Origin: Bacilli bacterium
GTDB taxonomy: Bacteria > Bacillota_I > Bacilli_A > RFN20 > CAG-826
Assembly (NCBI GenBank): GCA_024408105.1
Contig: JAKSVG010000008.1
Span: 1-33,773, forward strand
DNA length: 33,773 nt
Direction of reading: 5' to 3'
This document shows positions 18,640 through 26,459 of this stretch, in pieces. The notes below the pieces were generated by a model that did not search any database, was not told where the DNA came from, and saw only the letters and a program-made list of their open reading frames with translations. Every line of letters begins with the position of its first letter. Position 1 is the first letter of the stretch. The position numbers and the translations under genes were made by a program.

Positions 18640-18644
18640 TAATT

Positions 18645-18750
18645 TGTTTCAGGGCAAGGTGAAATTCCTTACCGGTGGTAAACCCCGCGCGCCGAAAGGC
18701 TGATCTAGTGAAATTCTAGAGGCGACAGTAAAGTCTGGATGAAAGAAACA
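18645..18750 (+). ncRNA. FMN riboswitch (RFN element)
   Basis: All conserved RFN blocks are visible in order: AGGGCAAGGTGAAATTCC, ACCGGTGGTAAACCCCGC, GCCGAAAGGCTGATC, a short variable hairpin (CTAG/CTAG), GGCGACAGTAAAGTCTGGAT and the closing GAAAGAAACA. The P1 stem pairs TGTTTC (18645-18650) with GAAACA (18745-18750). It precedes a riboflavin transporter, the standard target. FMN binding is expected to lower ribU expression through the hairpin that follows. Confidence 0.96.
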
Positions 18751-18767
18751 TTATTATTTTGTTTTAA

Positions 18768-18791: not shown

Positions 18792-19490
18792 ATGGAAATA
18801 ACACATGCAATTGTTCTTGGAGTAATGATTGTTTTGTGGTTTATTGCATTCTTAAAAGTTTTTTACGACACAAAAAGAAAAGGACAATCTACAAGTTTAA
18901 CTCGTAGGCTTGTTAGAATTGCAGTTTTTGGAGCAATTTCAGCTATATTATATTGTGTTCCAATATTAAAATTCCCTGTCCCTATATTTCCACAATTTCT
19001 TGAGTTTCATTTTGATGAGATTCCTGCTTTTATAGCTGGTTTTGCTTATGGCCCGTTATCAGCAATTGGAGTATTGCTTGTTAAGACTCTTATTAAATTA
19101 CCGTTAACCTCAACACTTTGTGTTGGTGAATTATCGGATCTTCTTTTTTCAGCAGCCTTTATCATTCCTGCTTCATTAATTTATAAATATCATCGTAATA
19201 TTAAAGGCGCATTAGTAGGTTTGGGTACAGGATTAGTTTTTCAATTACTATTTTCTATCATCGGAAATATTTATGTAATGGTTCCGTTTTATATGTTTAT
19301 GTTTAATATGTCTAGTCAACAATTGTTATCGATTTGTCAACTTGCAAATCCTGCAATAAAAGATGTTGGTTGGACATATGGATTATTTGCGGTTCTTCCG
19401 TTTAATTTAATCAAGGATGCAATAGTTATAATCGTTACAATTTTAGTGTATAAATCAACGCATAGATTTATAGACAAATTGCAAGCATAA
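18792..19490 (+). CDS. ribU: riboflavin ECF transporter substrate-binding subunit RibU
   Basis: RibU is the membrane S component that binds riboflavin and docks on the shared energy-coupling (EcfAA'T) module. The protein is 232 residues with about six hydrophobic segments. FPQFLEFHFDEIPAFIAGFA near residue 70 is the RibU signature, and FGAISAILYCVPIL and FNLIKDAIVIIV fit the family. An extra N-terminal hydrophobic segment (residues 5-25) precedes the core. The ATG follows directly on the T-run of the riboswitch hairpin. The FMN aptamer upstream independently supports the substrate. Confidence 0.95.
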   Translation: MEITHAIVLGVMIVLWFIAFLKVFYDTKRKGQSTSLTRRLVRIAVFGAISAILYCVPILKFPVPIFPQFLEFHFDEIPAFIAGFAYGPLSAIGVLLVKTLIKLPLTSTLCVGELSDLLFSAAFIIPASLIYKYHRNIKGALVGLGTGLVFQLLFSIIGNIYVMVPFYMFMFNMSSQQLLSICQLANPAIKDVGWTYGLFAVLPFNLIKDAIVIIVTILVYKSTHRFIDKLQA

Positions 19491-20819: not shown

Positions 20820-22127
20820 GTGTCACTTCCAGTTGTTGCATTAATAGGTAGTCCTAACGTTGGTAAGTCCACAATTTTTAATCGTATTATTGGTCAAAGG
20901 CGATCTATTATTGATGATCAACCTGGCGTAACAAGAGATAGATTATACGAGACAACATCTTGGTTAGGAAAAGAATTTCGCTTAATTGACACTGGCGGAA
21001 TTGAAACTGCTAATAGACCGTTTCAGGAGCAAATTAGAATACAAGCGCAATTGGCTATAGATGAAGCAGATGTAATTGTTTTCTTGTGTGATTCTCGTAG
21101 AGGCGTGTCAAACGACGATCGATTAATCGCAAAAATGCTTTATAAGTGTAATAAGCCTATTATTCTTGCTGTAAATAAAATCGATAATAATAATTTAGCT
21201 TTATCCATCAGTGAATTTTATAGCCTTGGTTTGGGTGAGCCAATTCCTGTTAGTGGAGAACACGGAATCGGAATAGGTGATATTCTTGATTTAATTATCA
21301 AAAATATTCCCGAAAAAGAAGATGAGAAATATGATGATTCAATTACTTTTTCATTAATTGGAAGACCTAATGTTGGCAAATCTTCATTAGTGAATGCTTT
21401 GTTAAATAAAGAAAGAGTTATTGTTTCCGATATTGTTGGGACAACAAGAGACTCAGTTGATACTCCTTTTACAAAAGATGGCAAAAATTACGTCGTTATT
21501 GATACGGCTGGATTGAAAAAACGTGGAAAAATTTACGAAAGTATCGATAAATTTTCTGCCTTAAGAGCATTGTCTGCTATCGATAGAAGCGAAATTGTAT
21601 TATTTGTAATCGATGCTTCTGAAGGTATTTTAGAACAAGATAAACACGTTGTGGGCTACGCAGTAGAAAAGAAAAAAGGAATAATTATTGTTGTTAATAA
21701 ATGGGATAAGATTAAAAAAGAGCAAAACACTCAAGTAGAGTTCGAAAAGAAAATTAGAAAAGAATTTCAATTTCTTGAATATGCTCCTATTGTGTTTACG
21801 TCTGCCCTAACAAAATCTAAAGTTGATAAAATTTATGATTTAATTGATCGAGTTCATCAAGCATATGATACGCACATACCAACTAGTGTTTTAAATGATG
21901 TATTGCAAGATGCTCAGACGATGAATGAAGCTCCAGAATTTAATCATGGTAGATTAAAAATCTATTTTGCAAATCAGGCAAACAGTTGCCCGCCTACATT
22001 CGTTTTATTCGTGAATAAACCTAAATATGCTCATTTTTCTTATATGAGATATCTCGAAAATAGGCTTAGAGATGCCTTTGATTTAGATGGAACTCCAATT
22101 GAAATTGTTCTTAGAGAACGTGTATAA
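20820..22127 (+). CDS. der: ribosome-assembly GTPase Der (EngA)
   Basis: Der has two consecutive GTPase domains that act in 50S subunit maturation. Domain 1: GSPNVGKSTIF near residue 9, GVTRDR switch, DTGG, NKID. Domain 2: GRPNVGKSSLV near residue 180, GTTRDS, DTAG, NKWD. A KH-like C-terminal domain follows (about residues 350-435). The start is GTG at 20820, supported by GGAG with a 7-nt spacer. Length 435 is standard. The last codons, including the stop, overlap the hup promoter. Confidence 0.97.
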   Translation: MSLPVVALIGSPNVGKSTIFNRIIGQRRSIIDDQPGVTRDRLYETTSWLGKEFRLIDTGGIETANRPFQEQIRIQAQLAIDEADVIVFLCDSRRGVSNDDRLIAKMLYKCNKPIILAVNKIDNNNLALSISEFYSLGLGEPIPVSGEHGIGIGDILDLIIKNIPEKEDEKYDDSITFSLIGRPNVGKSSLVNALLNKERVIVSDIVGTTRDSVDTPFTKDGKNYVVIDTAGLKKRGKIYESIDKFSALRALSAIDRSEIVLFVIDASEGILEQDKHVVGYAVEKKKGIIIVVNKWDKIKKEQNTQVEFEKKIRKEFQFLEYAPIVFTSALTKSKVDKIYDLIDRVHQAYDTHIPTSVLNDVLQDAQTMNEAPEFNHGRLKIYFANQANSCPPTFVLFVNKPKYAHFSYMRYLENRLRDAFDLDGTPIEIVLRERV

Positions 22128-22152: not shown

Positions 22153-22425
22153 ATGAATAAAGCAGAATTAATTCAAATTGTTAGCGAAAGAGTTGATGTT
22201 GCTCATAGCGATACCGAAATGGTTATCGAGGAATTTCTTAGTTTGATTGAAAAATCAATTATTAAAGGAGAAGATGTTAAACTTTCTGGTTTTGGTGTGT
22301 TCGAAAAGAAACAACGAAAAGAAAGAAAAGGAACAAACCCTTCTGATGGAAGGCACATTATTATTCCTGCTAGTTCAACTATTTCATTTAGACCTTCGAA
22401 GAATTTCAAGGCGAAAGTTAACTAA
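22153..22425 (+). CDS. hup: HU-family DNA-binding protein
   Basis: HU is the small nucleoid protein that bends and wraps DNA as a dimer. The 90-residue sequence has the helical dimerisation part at residues 1-45 (MNKAELIQIVSERVDVAHS) and the beta-arm region GFGVFEKKQRKERKGTNPSD, then IIIPASSTISFRPSKNFK, the canonical C-terminus. No extension or special domain is present. It has a dedicated strong promoter and a terminator right behind it, in keeping with abundant monocistronic expression. Confidence 0.95.
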   Translation: MNKAELIQIVSERVDVAHSDTEMVIEEFLSLIEKSIIKGEDVKLSGFGVFEKKQRKERKGTNPSDGRHIIIPASSTISFRPSKNFKAKVN

Positions 22426-22426
22426 T

Positions 22427-22452
22427 AGAGGCTTAAAGCCTCTTTTGTTTTT
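22427..22452 (+). terminator. hup terminator abutting the cca start codon
   Basis: AGAGGC (22427-22432) pairs with GCCTCT (22438-22443) around TTAAA, followed by TTTGTTTTT. The next gene's ATG begins at 22453, the very next base after the T-tract. Confidence 0.85.
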
Positions 22453-23067
22453 ATGAATAAAAACATATTCGATAAAGTTGCGAACCTATTTAATCAAAAT
22501 GGGTATCGTTTATATATGGTTGGTGGGGCAACTAGAGACTATCTTTTAGAACGTCCAATTTTAGACTACGACTTTGTTAGCGATGCCACTCCTGATGAAA
22601 TGAAGAAATTTTTGTTAGATGCAGATTTTACATTTTCTAGATTTGGCACGGTTAGGATAAAAGTTAATGGAGTAAAGGTTGACATCACAACTTTAAGAAT
22701 TGAAAGCGATTATGTTGACTATCGTCATCCAGGAAAAGTTATTTTTACTAAGTCGATAAAAGATGACTATGTTAGAAGAGATTTCACCATAAATGCAATT
22801 TATATGGATGAAGAGTACAACATCATTGATTACTGCAATGGATTAAATGATTTAAATTCTAAAATAATTCGTTTCATTGGCGACCCTGATAAACGCATTA
22901 AAGAAGATCCATTAAGAATTTTGCGAGCAGAAAGATTTGAAAAGAAATTAGGATTTAAAATTGAAGATGAAACATTTAAAGCAATCGAAAGAAATAGACA
23001 TCTTATCGACGAATTGAATCCTCTAAAAATTAAAGCCGAATTAGAAAAAATGAAAAATGAGTTTTAA
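22453..23067 (+). CDS. short CCA-adding enzyme / poly(A) polymerase-type nucleotidyltransferase
   Basis: The protein carries the class II tRNA nucleotidyltransferase head: GGATRDYLL near residue 24, the metal-binding pair D38/D40 in LDYDF, VDITTLRIES, VRRDFTINAIYM near 108, and EDPLRILRAERF near 151, the amino-acid template motif that reads ATP and CTP. It then stops after the first neck helices at 204 residues, where family members usually reach about 400; the body and tail domains that hold the tRNA are absent. The stop is clean and dnaD follows after 32 nt, with no frame that continues the family. No ribosome site precedes the ATG, which sits directly on the hup terminator. It may be a minimal CCA enzyme, a specialised A- or CC-adding enzyme, or a poly(A) polymerase. 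Confidence 0.82.
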   Translation: MNKNIFDKVANLFNQNGYRLYMVGGATRDYLLERPILDYDFVSDATPDEMKKFLLDADFTFSRFGTVRIKVNGVKVDITTLRIESDYVDYRHPGKVIFTKSIKDDYVRRDFTINAIYMDEEYNIIDYCNGLNDLNSKIIRFIGDPDKRIKEDPLRILRAERFEKKLGFKIEDETFKAIERNRHLIDELNPLKIKAELEKMKNEF

Positions 23068-23099: not shown

Positions 23100-23744
23100 A
23101 TGTCAGTTATACAAATGGAAGCATTAGACTTCCGCTACCTACTTCTTGAATATTACAAAAAGCTAAAAATTAGTGAAAGTGAATTAGCGGTTATTTTAAT
23201 GATTGACCATTTGCTAAATCAAAAAAATAATTTGATAACACCAGACATGCTTTCATTGAAAATGAATCTTTCAAGTAAGGAACTTGATAAGATTTTAGTT
23301 TCTTTAATCGAAAGAAATTTTTTGGTTTATGAAGTTGGTAAGAAAATCAAAGTATCATTAAAACCTCTTCAAAAGAAACTATATAATACTTTTCAAGTTG
23401 CTTTAGCAAAAGAACAAGAAAATGTATCTAATGAAAGAAAAGCTGCTGCTTTGAACAATATTTATGAAGTTTTTGAAAAAGAACTAAAAAGAACATTGTC
23501 TCCTCTTGAATTTGCCCTTATTGGAGAATGGGTTAATGATGGTTTTAGTGACGAAGTAATCATTGCCGCATTCAATGAAGCAATATCAAAAGGTAAAAAA
23601 TCTTTAAAAAGCGTTGATAAAATTCTTGTTCAATGGAAAGTCAGAGACGATATTGAAAAAGAAGGAATATCTAATGTCAAAGAAGTTTGGGACGATGATA
23701 TTGAGAAGACAATCGAAATTGCTAAAGCAAAATGGATTGATTAA
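23100..23744 (+). CDS. dnaD: DnaD-family replication initiation protein
   Basis: DnaD helps remodel DNA and load the replicative helicase in low-GC Gram-positives. The N-terminal winged-helix part spans about residues 1-100 (LSSKELDKILVSLIERNFL). The C-terminal DnaD/DnaB2 domain includes LSPLEFALIGEWVNDGFSD and EAISKGKKSLKSVDKIL, followed by a tail with VWDDDIE. Length is 214. It is placed directly before nth with a one-base overlap, the same order as in Bacillus. The start has no ribosome site; a -10-like box lies 9 nt upstream. Confidence 0.92.
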   Translation: MSVIQMEALDFRYLLLEYYKKLKISESELAVILMIDHLLNQKNNLITPDMLSLKMNLSSKELDKILVSLIERNFLVYEVGKKIKVSLKPLQKKLYNTFQVALAKEQENVSNERKAAALNNIYEVFEKELKRTLSPLEFALIGEWVNDGFSDEVIIAAFNEAISKGKKSLKSVDKILVQWKVRDDIEKEGISNVKEVWDDDIEKTIEIAKAKWID

Positions 23745-24373
23745 TGACTATTAAAAAAGAAATTTTATTTAATTATTTAGATGAGTTATATCCAAATGCT
23801 CATTGCGAATTAAATTATTCTAAAGATTATGAACTATTGATAGCGATTATGCTTTCTGCTCAAACAACAGATAAAGCAGTTAACAAGGCAACCGCTATTT
23901 TGTTTAATAAGTATCCAACACTTATCGATTTAAAAAATGCAGATATTAATGATATTGAAAAATGCATTTCTTTTCTTGGAATGTATAAAAATAAGGCTAA
24001 GCATATAATTGGAATTGCCACAATAATTATTGATAAGTTTTCTGGTGTAGTTCCTACAAATGAATCAGATTTAATATCACTTCCAGGCGTTGGAAATAAG
24101 ACCAAGAACTGTTACTTAGCAGAGTGGTGCAACAAGCCTCTTTTGGCAGTTGATACCCACGTTCAAAGAATAAGTAAAAGATTAAAAATCGTTAGCCAAA
24201 AAGACGATCCTAAAGCAATAGAAGAAAAACTGATGAAGTTTATTCCAAACGATAGATTAATAAAAACAAACCACCAATTAATATGGTTTGGTAGATATTT
24301 CTGTAAAGCTATATCCCCAAATTGTAAAAACTGCAAAATATGCGAGTTTTGCAAAGAAAAAAATATTATTTAA
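23744..24373 (+). CDS. nth: endonuclease III
   Basis: Nth removes oxidised pyrimidines and cuts the abasic site. The helix-hairpin-helix is LPGVGNKTKN, with the catalytic Lys in it, and the catalytic Asp is in LAVDTHVQRIS. Four Cys with spacing C-x6-C-x2-C-x5-C near the C-terminus (KAISPNCKNCKICEFC) hold a [4Fe-4S] cluster, a likely product of the suf system in this window. Length is 209. It overlaps dnaD by one base and its last 8 bases overlap the 3' end of the convergent recU. Confidence 0.95.
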   Translation: MTIKKEILFNYLDELYPNAHCELNYSKDYELLIAIMLSAQTTDKAVNKATAILFNKYPTLIDLKNADINDIEKCISFLGMYKNKAKHIIGIATIIIDKFSGVVPTNESDLISLPGVGNKTKNCYLAEWCNKPLLAVDTHVQRISKRLKIVSQKDDPKAIEEKLMKFIPNDRLIKTNHQLIWFGRYFCKAISPNCKNCKICEFCKEKNII

Positions 24374-26123: not shown

Positions 26124-26459
26124 TCCGGTCTGGACAATTGCTAGGTTACTAGAGGAAAGTCCATGCTCGCACCATCTGCGATGATGGTAGTGATTGCGCT
26201 AGCGGAAAAAATAACGCTAGGTATGCAGGAGTGCATAACGGCGGAATTAGCCTAAAACGTAAGTCAAGGTGATATTCCTGAAAGTGCCACAGTGACGATG
26301 CTAGTAGAAATGCTAGAGTGGAACGTTGGTAAACCCCACAAGCGAGAAACCCAAATTTGGTAGGGGAGGTCTGATGGAAGAATTGAATTCCTGATGGCAT
26401 GTAACTTTGTTACATAGATAAATTTTTGTCCAAGACAAAACATGGCTTATAGGACCGGA
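26124..26459 (+). ncRNA. rnpB: RNase P RNA, B-type
   Basis: The catalytic RNA that trims tRNA 5' ends. P1 pairs CCGGTC (26125-26130) with GACCGG (26453-26458). Conserved blocks follow in order: GAGGAAAGTCCATGCTCGCA, GAAAGTGCCACAGTGACGA, GGTAAACCCCACAAGCGAGA and AACCCAAATTTGGTAGGGG, and finally GACAAAACATGGCTTATAGG. These match the Bacillus (B-type) RNA closely. Ends are taken from the P1 pairing and may be off by a few bases. It lies about 2 nt after gpsB and about 19 nt before pgsA, with no terminator of its own. Confidence 0.96.

Follow-up and report, generated by a model that had tools for sequence, protein, structure and literature searches.

The window (the whole stretch of DNA that was analysed, 33,773 nucleotides) contains a short cca gene whose product, judged from its sequence, appears to be a variant of class II tRNA nucleotidyltransferase lacking both body and tail. 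It is probably a naturally minimal, core-only enzyme, kept to repair the encoded CCA ends of tRNAs, in which the tRNA-gripping clamp was lost where de novo CCA synthesis was not needed. The bacterial order to which the genome belongs may well maintain its tRNA 3' ends with such a free-standing core of about 200 residues and no elbow-gripping domain. Catalytic activity, the substrate, and repair rather than full CCA synthesis as the job of the enzyme are predictions. To our knowledge, no other natural class II tRNA nucleotidyltransferase would be as small as this core of about 200 residues, and searches of open-licence PMC papers found no description of a core-only enzyme of this class.

The open reading frame has an ATG start codon and a TAA stop codon and encodes 204 residues. 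The head motifs GGATRD, D38/D40, RRDFTINA, and EDPLR, described as intact in a preliminary description of this DNA, were all located in the protein. The gene and its elements are as follows:

22453..23067, forward strand: short cca gene for a class II tRNA nucleotidyltransferase of 204 aa that comprises only the head and the beginning of the neck
22522..22539, forward strand: start of motif A, GGATRD, residues 24-29 (G24, R28, and D29 in 54/54 aligned short proteins)
22564..22572, forward strand: catalytic DxD, D38 and D40 (D38 in 53/54, D40 in 54/54 short proteins)
22681..22683, forward strand: third carboxylate D77 (Glu in 32/32 long enzymes; among 54 short proteins Asp 36, Glu 9, Thr 7, Gln 1, Leu 1)
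22723..22725, forward strand: flexible-loop arginine R91 (Arg in 50/54 short proteins)
22774..22797, forward strand: motif B, RRDFTINA, residues 108-115, from the alignment (RRD in 54/54 short proteins)
22903..22917, forward strand: motif D, nucleotide template EDPLR (EDxxR), residues 151-155 (P153 in 54/54 short proteins, Ala in 25/32 long ones)
23017..23040, forward strand: motif E, N189-E196, the last catalytic-core element (E196 in 53/54 short proteins; K192 in 52/54 short proteins versus Arg in 32/32 long ones)

In the Pfam search the head domain PF01743 matched residues 20-140 over its whole profile (1-126, E 1.3e-34), while the neck model PF12627 was matched at 34 of its 64 positions, with 21.6 bits against a cut-off of 22. 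The frame thus ends early in the neck at residue 204, as described before. The C-terminus lies 8 residues past E196, the final conserved glutamate of motif E, from where body and tail would be expected. All the class II hallmarks of the core are present (a head with GG..RD and DxD, motif B as RRDFT.NA, motif D as EDxxR, and motif E), and body and tail are absent. In class II enzymes the latter two form the tRNA-binding site according to one report (PMC8563995); another describes CTP or ATP being selected in a pocket between head and neck, with body and tail reading the acceptor and T arms and anchoring the elbow (PMC3925840). In the chimeras described in PMC7730189, the final invariant glutamate of motif E was used as the boundary between core and tRNA-binding part.

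A phmmer search aligned residues 13-200 to residues 15-202 of the 404-residue CCA-adding enzyme of B. stearothermophilus (1MIV, E 2.9e-40), so about half of the enzyme is absent. The top curated model was PRK13299, CCA tRNA nucleotidyltransferase (216.2 bits, residues 11-200); its whole-protein cut-off of 290 bits was missed because half of the profile has no counterpart in the short protein. No frame restoring the body was found 3' of cca, where the next genes are dnaD and then nth. AlphaFold was run on five sequences and the mean pLDDT was 62. Foldseek with this low-confidence model ranked CCA enzymes first at an rmsd of about 10 Å. Because of the low pLDDT and high rmsd, surfaces and finer structural detail were not read from the model.

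The short length is not an error of the assembly. A single match, in an open frame of 202-223 codons, was found in each of 22 of the 23 genus-mates; G023 has none. A sequencing error or frameshift was rejected because genus members repeatedly show this length; the preliminary description had named a sequencing error as a possible refutation. In the order, 265 of 279 genomes have a match and 14 lack the gene, for example G023 at 96% completeness. Among the 150 order matches listed (weaker matches left out), 123 frames have 201-291 codons and 27 exceed 300; the latter are full-length enzymes, f3 fusions of the head to another domain, and one intermediate. Short frames prevail across the genus and most of the family. 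Outside the order, frames listed in a class survey of 198 genomes have at least 360 codons, with G325 as the sole exception; its short frame was discarded as one of two frames of a single split full-length gene.

A tree of 93 head regions separated 54 short, 5 f3, and 2 f4 proteins from 32 full-length proteins by a 100/96 branch (with a caveat that the bootstrap was not fully settled and many inner branches are open). The f4 relatives inside the short clade, G044 (378 aa) and G054 (362 aa), retain a C-terminal half, and the short clade was therefore probably derived from a full-length enzyme. In the f3 proteins (L008, L084, L123, L137, L138) the short head is fused in-frame to a long C-terminal part. 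This part is a membrane dipeptidase domain (PF01244) in L008 and L084, the two tested. G036 and G057 have a version of 325-328 aa with no recognisable dipeptidase.

The short cca genes are under purifying selection: among the short pairs, dN/dS is 0.02-0.17 in the seven whose dS lies under 1.1 (in the other five, dS exceeds 2 or is saturated), and it is 0.06-0.10 in three long pairs. A decaying remnant could be suspected from the 14 relatives without the gene and from the loss of a catalytic residue in some others. It is nonetheless extremely improbable, given the purifying selection, the breadth of the clade, the intact motifs, and the lack of a full enzyme alongside in the window's own genome. 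Such a remnant beside a full enzyme was the other refutation foreseen in the preliminary description, and it fails for this genome; some distant relatives do have both a short and a long copy. Of 13 g42 genomes examined, 5 have the long enzyme only and 8 the short one only. That these genomes hold one or the other suggests that the two forms are functionally interchangeable.

The search for a second nucleotidyltransferase, proposed in the preliminary description, yielded a single PF01743 match in the window's genome (assembly 73% complete). Neither there nor in the 22 genus-mates with a match was a second, CC-adding class II enzyme found, as would be expected if the short protein were the A-adding half of a paired system. 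Second matches in seven g49 genomes were dismissed as spurious (under the cut-off at E about 4e-4 to 8e-4, five of them within frames of 1714-2419 codons). A stand-alone body/tail protein was also sought. The body/tail domain PF13735 is absent from the window's genome and from every short-enzyme genome among 59, at a sensitivity of 6/14 control genomes detected. An order-specific body/tail profile was then built from 12 full-length enzymes: it hit 7/7 full-length control genomes and, among the other 43 genomes, only G009. No stand-alone body/tail protein was found with it in the window's genome or in short-enzyme relatives. The G009 match (L244) was rejected as a partner, being an HD-domain protein (PF01966).

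The short protein might depend on homodimerisation, or on an unrelated tRNA-binding protein, to make up for the missing grip. About half of the clamp enzyme is gone and the gene has constant neighbours (der, hup, dnaD, nth), either of which would fit such an arrangement. This is very unlikely, since no body/tail homologue was found, the neighbours are ordinary housekeeping genes, and the linkage to dnaD may be older than the truncation. The conserved neighbours and the region ahead of the start codon are listed below; the names der and hup are putative, assigned from the sequence.

20820..22127, forward strand: der, conserved upstream neighbour (ORF list, neighbour comparison)
22153..22425, forward strand: hup, HU-like DNA-binding protein, conserved neighbour (ORF list, neighbour comparison)
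22427..22443, forward strand: hup hairpin resembling an intrinsic terminator, with a T-run behind it that reaches the cca start codon (sequence)
23100..23744, forward strand: dnaD, conserved neighbour (PF21984, PF07261)
23744..24373, forward strand: nth, endonuclease III-like, conserved neighbour (PF00730)

The short gene sits in this conserved der-hup-cca-dnaD-nth block, with dnaD beginning 32 nt past the cca end, as had been noted. In a comparison of flanks of about 1.5 kb for most loci, hup or dnaD adjoins 45/46 short loci and dnaD adjoins 8/8 f3 loci. Full-length loci of the same order have none of the eight tested neighbour genes (0/17). The long form may have been gained horizontally and the short form lost. 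At L147, outside the order, a full-length cca also adjoins dnaD, so the cca-dnaD linkage may predate the truncation. The T-run of hup abuts the cca ATG (22427-22453) and no ribosome-binding site is visible. TATAAT-like boxes lie about 6-10 nt 5' of the cca ATG in several relatives, which suggests a leaderless cca mRNA. Elsewhere in the window there are an FMN riboswitch (18641-18754) ahead of a membrane-protein-like gene at 18792 and a class B RNase P RNA (26126-26454). An 83-aa minus-strand ORF antisense to the latter (26149-26400) is probably no gene.

Whether the tRNA genes encode CCA was another check that had been proposed; of the 38 distinct ones in the window's genome, 37 do so. The lone CCA-less tRNA-like gene is L071 (G000:C14:11283-11374; 93 nt, 41.5 bits), called as tRNA-Gln(ttg), whose variable arm is long and whose anticodon stem contains a T-T mismatch. 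For the other genomes, the number of RF00005 tRNAs was compared with the number of matches to a T-arm pattern ending in CCA, and the reversed pattern served as a background control. In the 19 counted genomes for which only a short frame was listed, the ratio of CCA-ending T-arms to tRNAs ranged from 0.86 (G041, 25/29) to 1.24 (G254, 41/33). G263 and G269 have similar ratios, their frame lengths not being among those listed. Direct reading of distinct tRNAs found CCA ends in 20/20 for G139, in 16/16 for G123, and in 16/18 for G194, which has two frames, one short and one of 585 codons.

Near-zero pattern counts were found in only four of the 279 genomes: G058 (4 matches, 43 tRNAs), G071 (4, 46), G075 (4, 30), and G069 (6, 29). 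The reversed pattern gave 4, 3, 2, and 0 matches, respectively. Read directly, CCA ends were present in 2/16 distinct tRNAs of G071, 0/2 of G075, and 1/8 of G069. All four genomes hold a full-length enzyme: it is the only match in G058, G071, and G075, and G069 has two frames, one short and one of 430 codons. The four genomes are all members of family f5, and three of the enzymes are closely related, so this represents one or two losses of encoded CCA rather than four. An intermediate case is G045, which has a long enzyme (25 CCA matches, 41 tRNAs). Low CCA counts in G122, G031, G035, G121, and G138 were not accepted as CCA loss, because few tRNA genes are present in these assemblies. By these counts, none of the 279 order genomes combines a lack of encoded CCA with a short frame as the only listed enzyme. 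Full-length enzymes also coexist with encoded CCA (for example in G070, G136, G157, G158, G169, G262); encoded CCA therefore permits the loss of the clamp and does not force it.

Of the possibilities offered in the preliminary description for so short an enzyme (a partner, dimerisation, or a reduced job), a reduced job is favoured because there is no second enzyme and no loose body/tail protein, 37/38 tRNAs encode CCA, and the relatives are short as well. A dedicated body/tail partner found no support. Nor did the more specific proposal that only A or only CC is added, since the loop arginine and EDxxR are kept. Loss of the flexible loop or its arginine is a known feature of CC-adding enzymes. 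R91 is retained in the window's protein and in 50/54 short proteins, which places them outside that group. In the human enzyme the flexible-loop arginine is needed for A-addition (PMC11784652), and R91 is probably its equivalent. R91 is missing in four otherwise intact short enzymes, L079, L080, and L081 from three f8 genomes and L082 from G049, with a possible loss of A-addition control.

The other active-site residues are nearly invariant across the 54 aligned short proteins (D38 53, D40 54, RRD 54, E151 53, D152 54, R155 54, E196 53). The third carboxylate is more variable: it is Asp in 36, as in the window's protein, Glu in 9, and another residue (Thr, Gln, or Leu) in the remaining 9. Family f5 contributes seven of these nine losses, namely L076, L077, L078, L106, L107, L110, and L118, with Thr at the aligned position; a second, long class II enzyme is also present in several of the f5 genomes concerned. 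With the third carboxylate lost in 9/54 and R91 in 4/54, some relatives may be impaired or repurposed.

If the core alone were a complete CCA polymerase, able to add C, C, and A with no elbow clamp, though less efficiently, the association with encoded CCA would reflect lower demand. The specificity elements are indeed kept (the flexible loop with R91, EDxxR, and the glutamate of motif E), and nematode enzymes are reported to offset weak elbow contacts by extra basic residues (PMC7730189, PMC12013499). The short proteins have a slightly higher mean net charge than the long ones (core 0.1 versus -1.8, neck 3.7 versus 1.6), which could aid tRNA binding, but the shift is small against the spread (standard deviations 4.8 and 3.6). 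A full synthesiser would also allow genomes with a short enzyme only and no encoded CCA, yet none was seen. This reading is unlikely.

Four residues mark the short clade: P153 (54/54 short, 1/32 long), Y117 (53/54 short, 2/32 long), F61 (46/54 short, 0/32 long, where the residue is Gly), and the lysine at 192 noted above. P153 and Y117 have equivalents in E. coli poly(A) polymerase I (PAP I) by HMMER alignment. This could point to a poly(A)-polymerase-like RNA 3'-tailing enzyme that evolved from a CCA core, and generic RNA ends would require no gripping domain. However, in all four short proteins tested (the window's included) and one fusion the CCA model scored above pcnB, with 216 versus 136, 208 versus 146, 177 versus 118, and 169 versus 136 bits among the values obtained; the first pair is that of the window's protein, whose better match is to the CCA model and not to pcnB. 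PAP I, at 415 residues, retains a complete C-terminal portion, and a separate tailing job would not predict the replacement of one form by the other in g42. A tailing enzyme is thus quite unlikely.

The preferred reading, repair of encoded CCA ends by a minimal core, would account for the loss of the clamp in the following way. In an ancestor within the order, all tRNAs would have come to encode CCA, leaving the enzyme with the re-addition of the last one or two nucleotides. Organisms with encoded CCA are thought to retain CCA enzymes for end repair and tRNA quality control (PMC11784652). For repair it would be enough to place the 3' end between head and neck, and the clamp on the elbow, which holds the tRNA over three successive additions, would become dispensable. 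The anchor may then have been trimmed away in many lineages, this order of events being a proposal; the genomes that have lost encoded CCA do have a full-length enzyme. The short protein comprises the head and the neck as far as motif E and has no body or tail with which to hold the elbow. It is the only enzyme of its type found in the genome and would most likely restore A76, or C75-A76, to CCA-encoded tRNAs. A half-length enzyme is apparently tolerated because the tRNA genes already encode CCA and only repair remains.

The short enzymes occur in a group of small uncultured bacteria in which the chemistry would be retained and the tRNA-gripping part is gone. The contribution of body and tail in class II enzymes has so far been studied by mutants and chimeras; much of one bacterial order appears to be a natural deletion, cut near the boundary that experimenters chose, the end of motif E. 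If the proposal is true, the clamp is required for making CCA from nothing and not for maintaining it. This division, clamp for synthesis and core for repair, is directly testable because the natural deletion, full-length sisters, and CCA-less genomes that all have a long enzyme are available. For the reading of metagenomes, core-only proteins fall under the cut-off of the curated CCA model and can resemble truncated genes.

Among known systems, the closest are the class II CCA enzymes of Bacillota (B. stearothermophilus 1MIV, Planococcus 6QY6; NCBIfam PRK13299), which have the same head fold, motifs A-E, and flexible loop, and rank first in both the sequence and the Foldseek comparisons; dnaD also adjoins cca in one full-length relative outside the order. 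The short protein differs from them in its length (204 residues versus 404 in 1MIV, without body or tail), in having EDPLR for EDALR, and in Lys for Arg in motif E. The enzymes of Aquifex (1VFG, the 3WFO series) are likewise a class II core with a reduced job. However, as described in PMC3925840, the two Aquifex enzymes keep body and tail and work together, whereas the short type is a single gene without the C-terminal half and with the loop arginine kept. E. coli PAP I (3AQM; PcnB) has the class II head in common with the short proteins, as well as EDP and a tyrosine that follows RRDFTIN, but it is about twice as long, and the short proteins score higher with CCA models. In the nematode mitochondrial CCA enzymes that serve armless tRNAs (Romanomermis, Ascaris), elbow contacts are, according to the reports on them, unusable and offset elsewhere. 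Those enzymes are described as keeping or extending the C-terminal half, whereas the short bacterial enzymes drop it.
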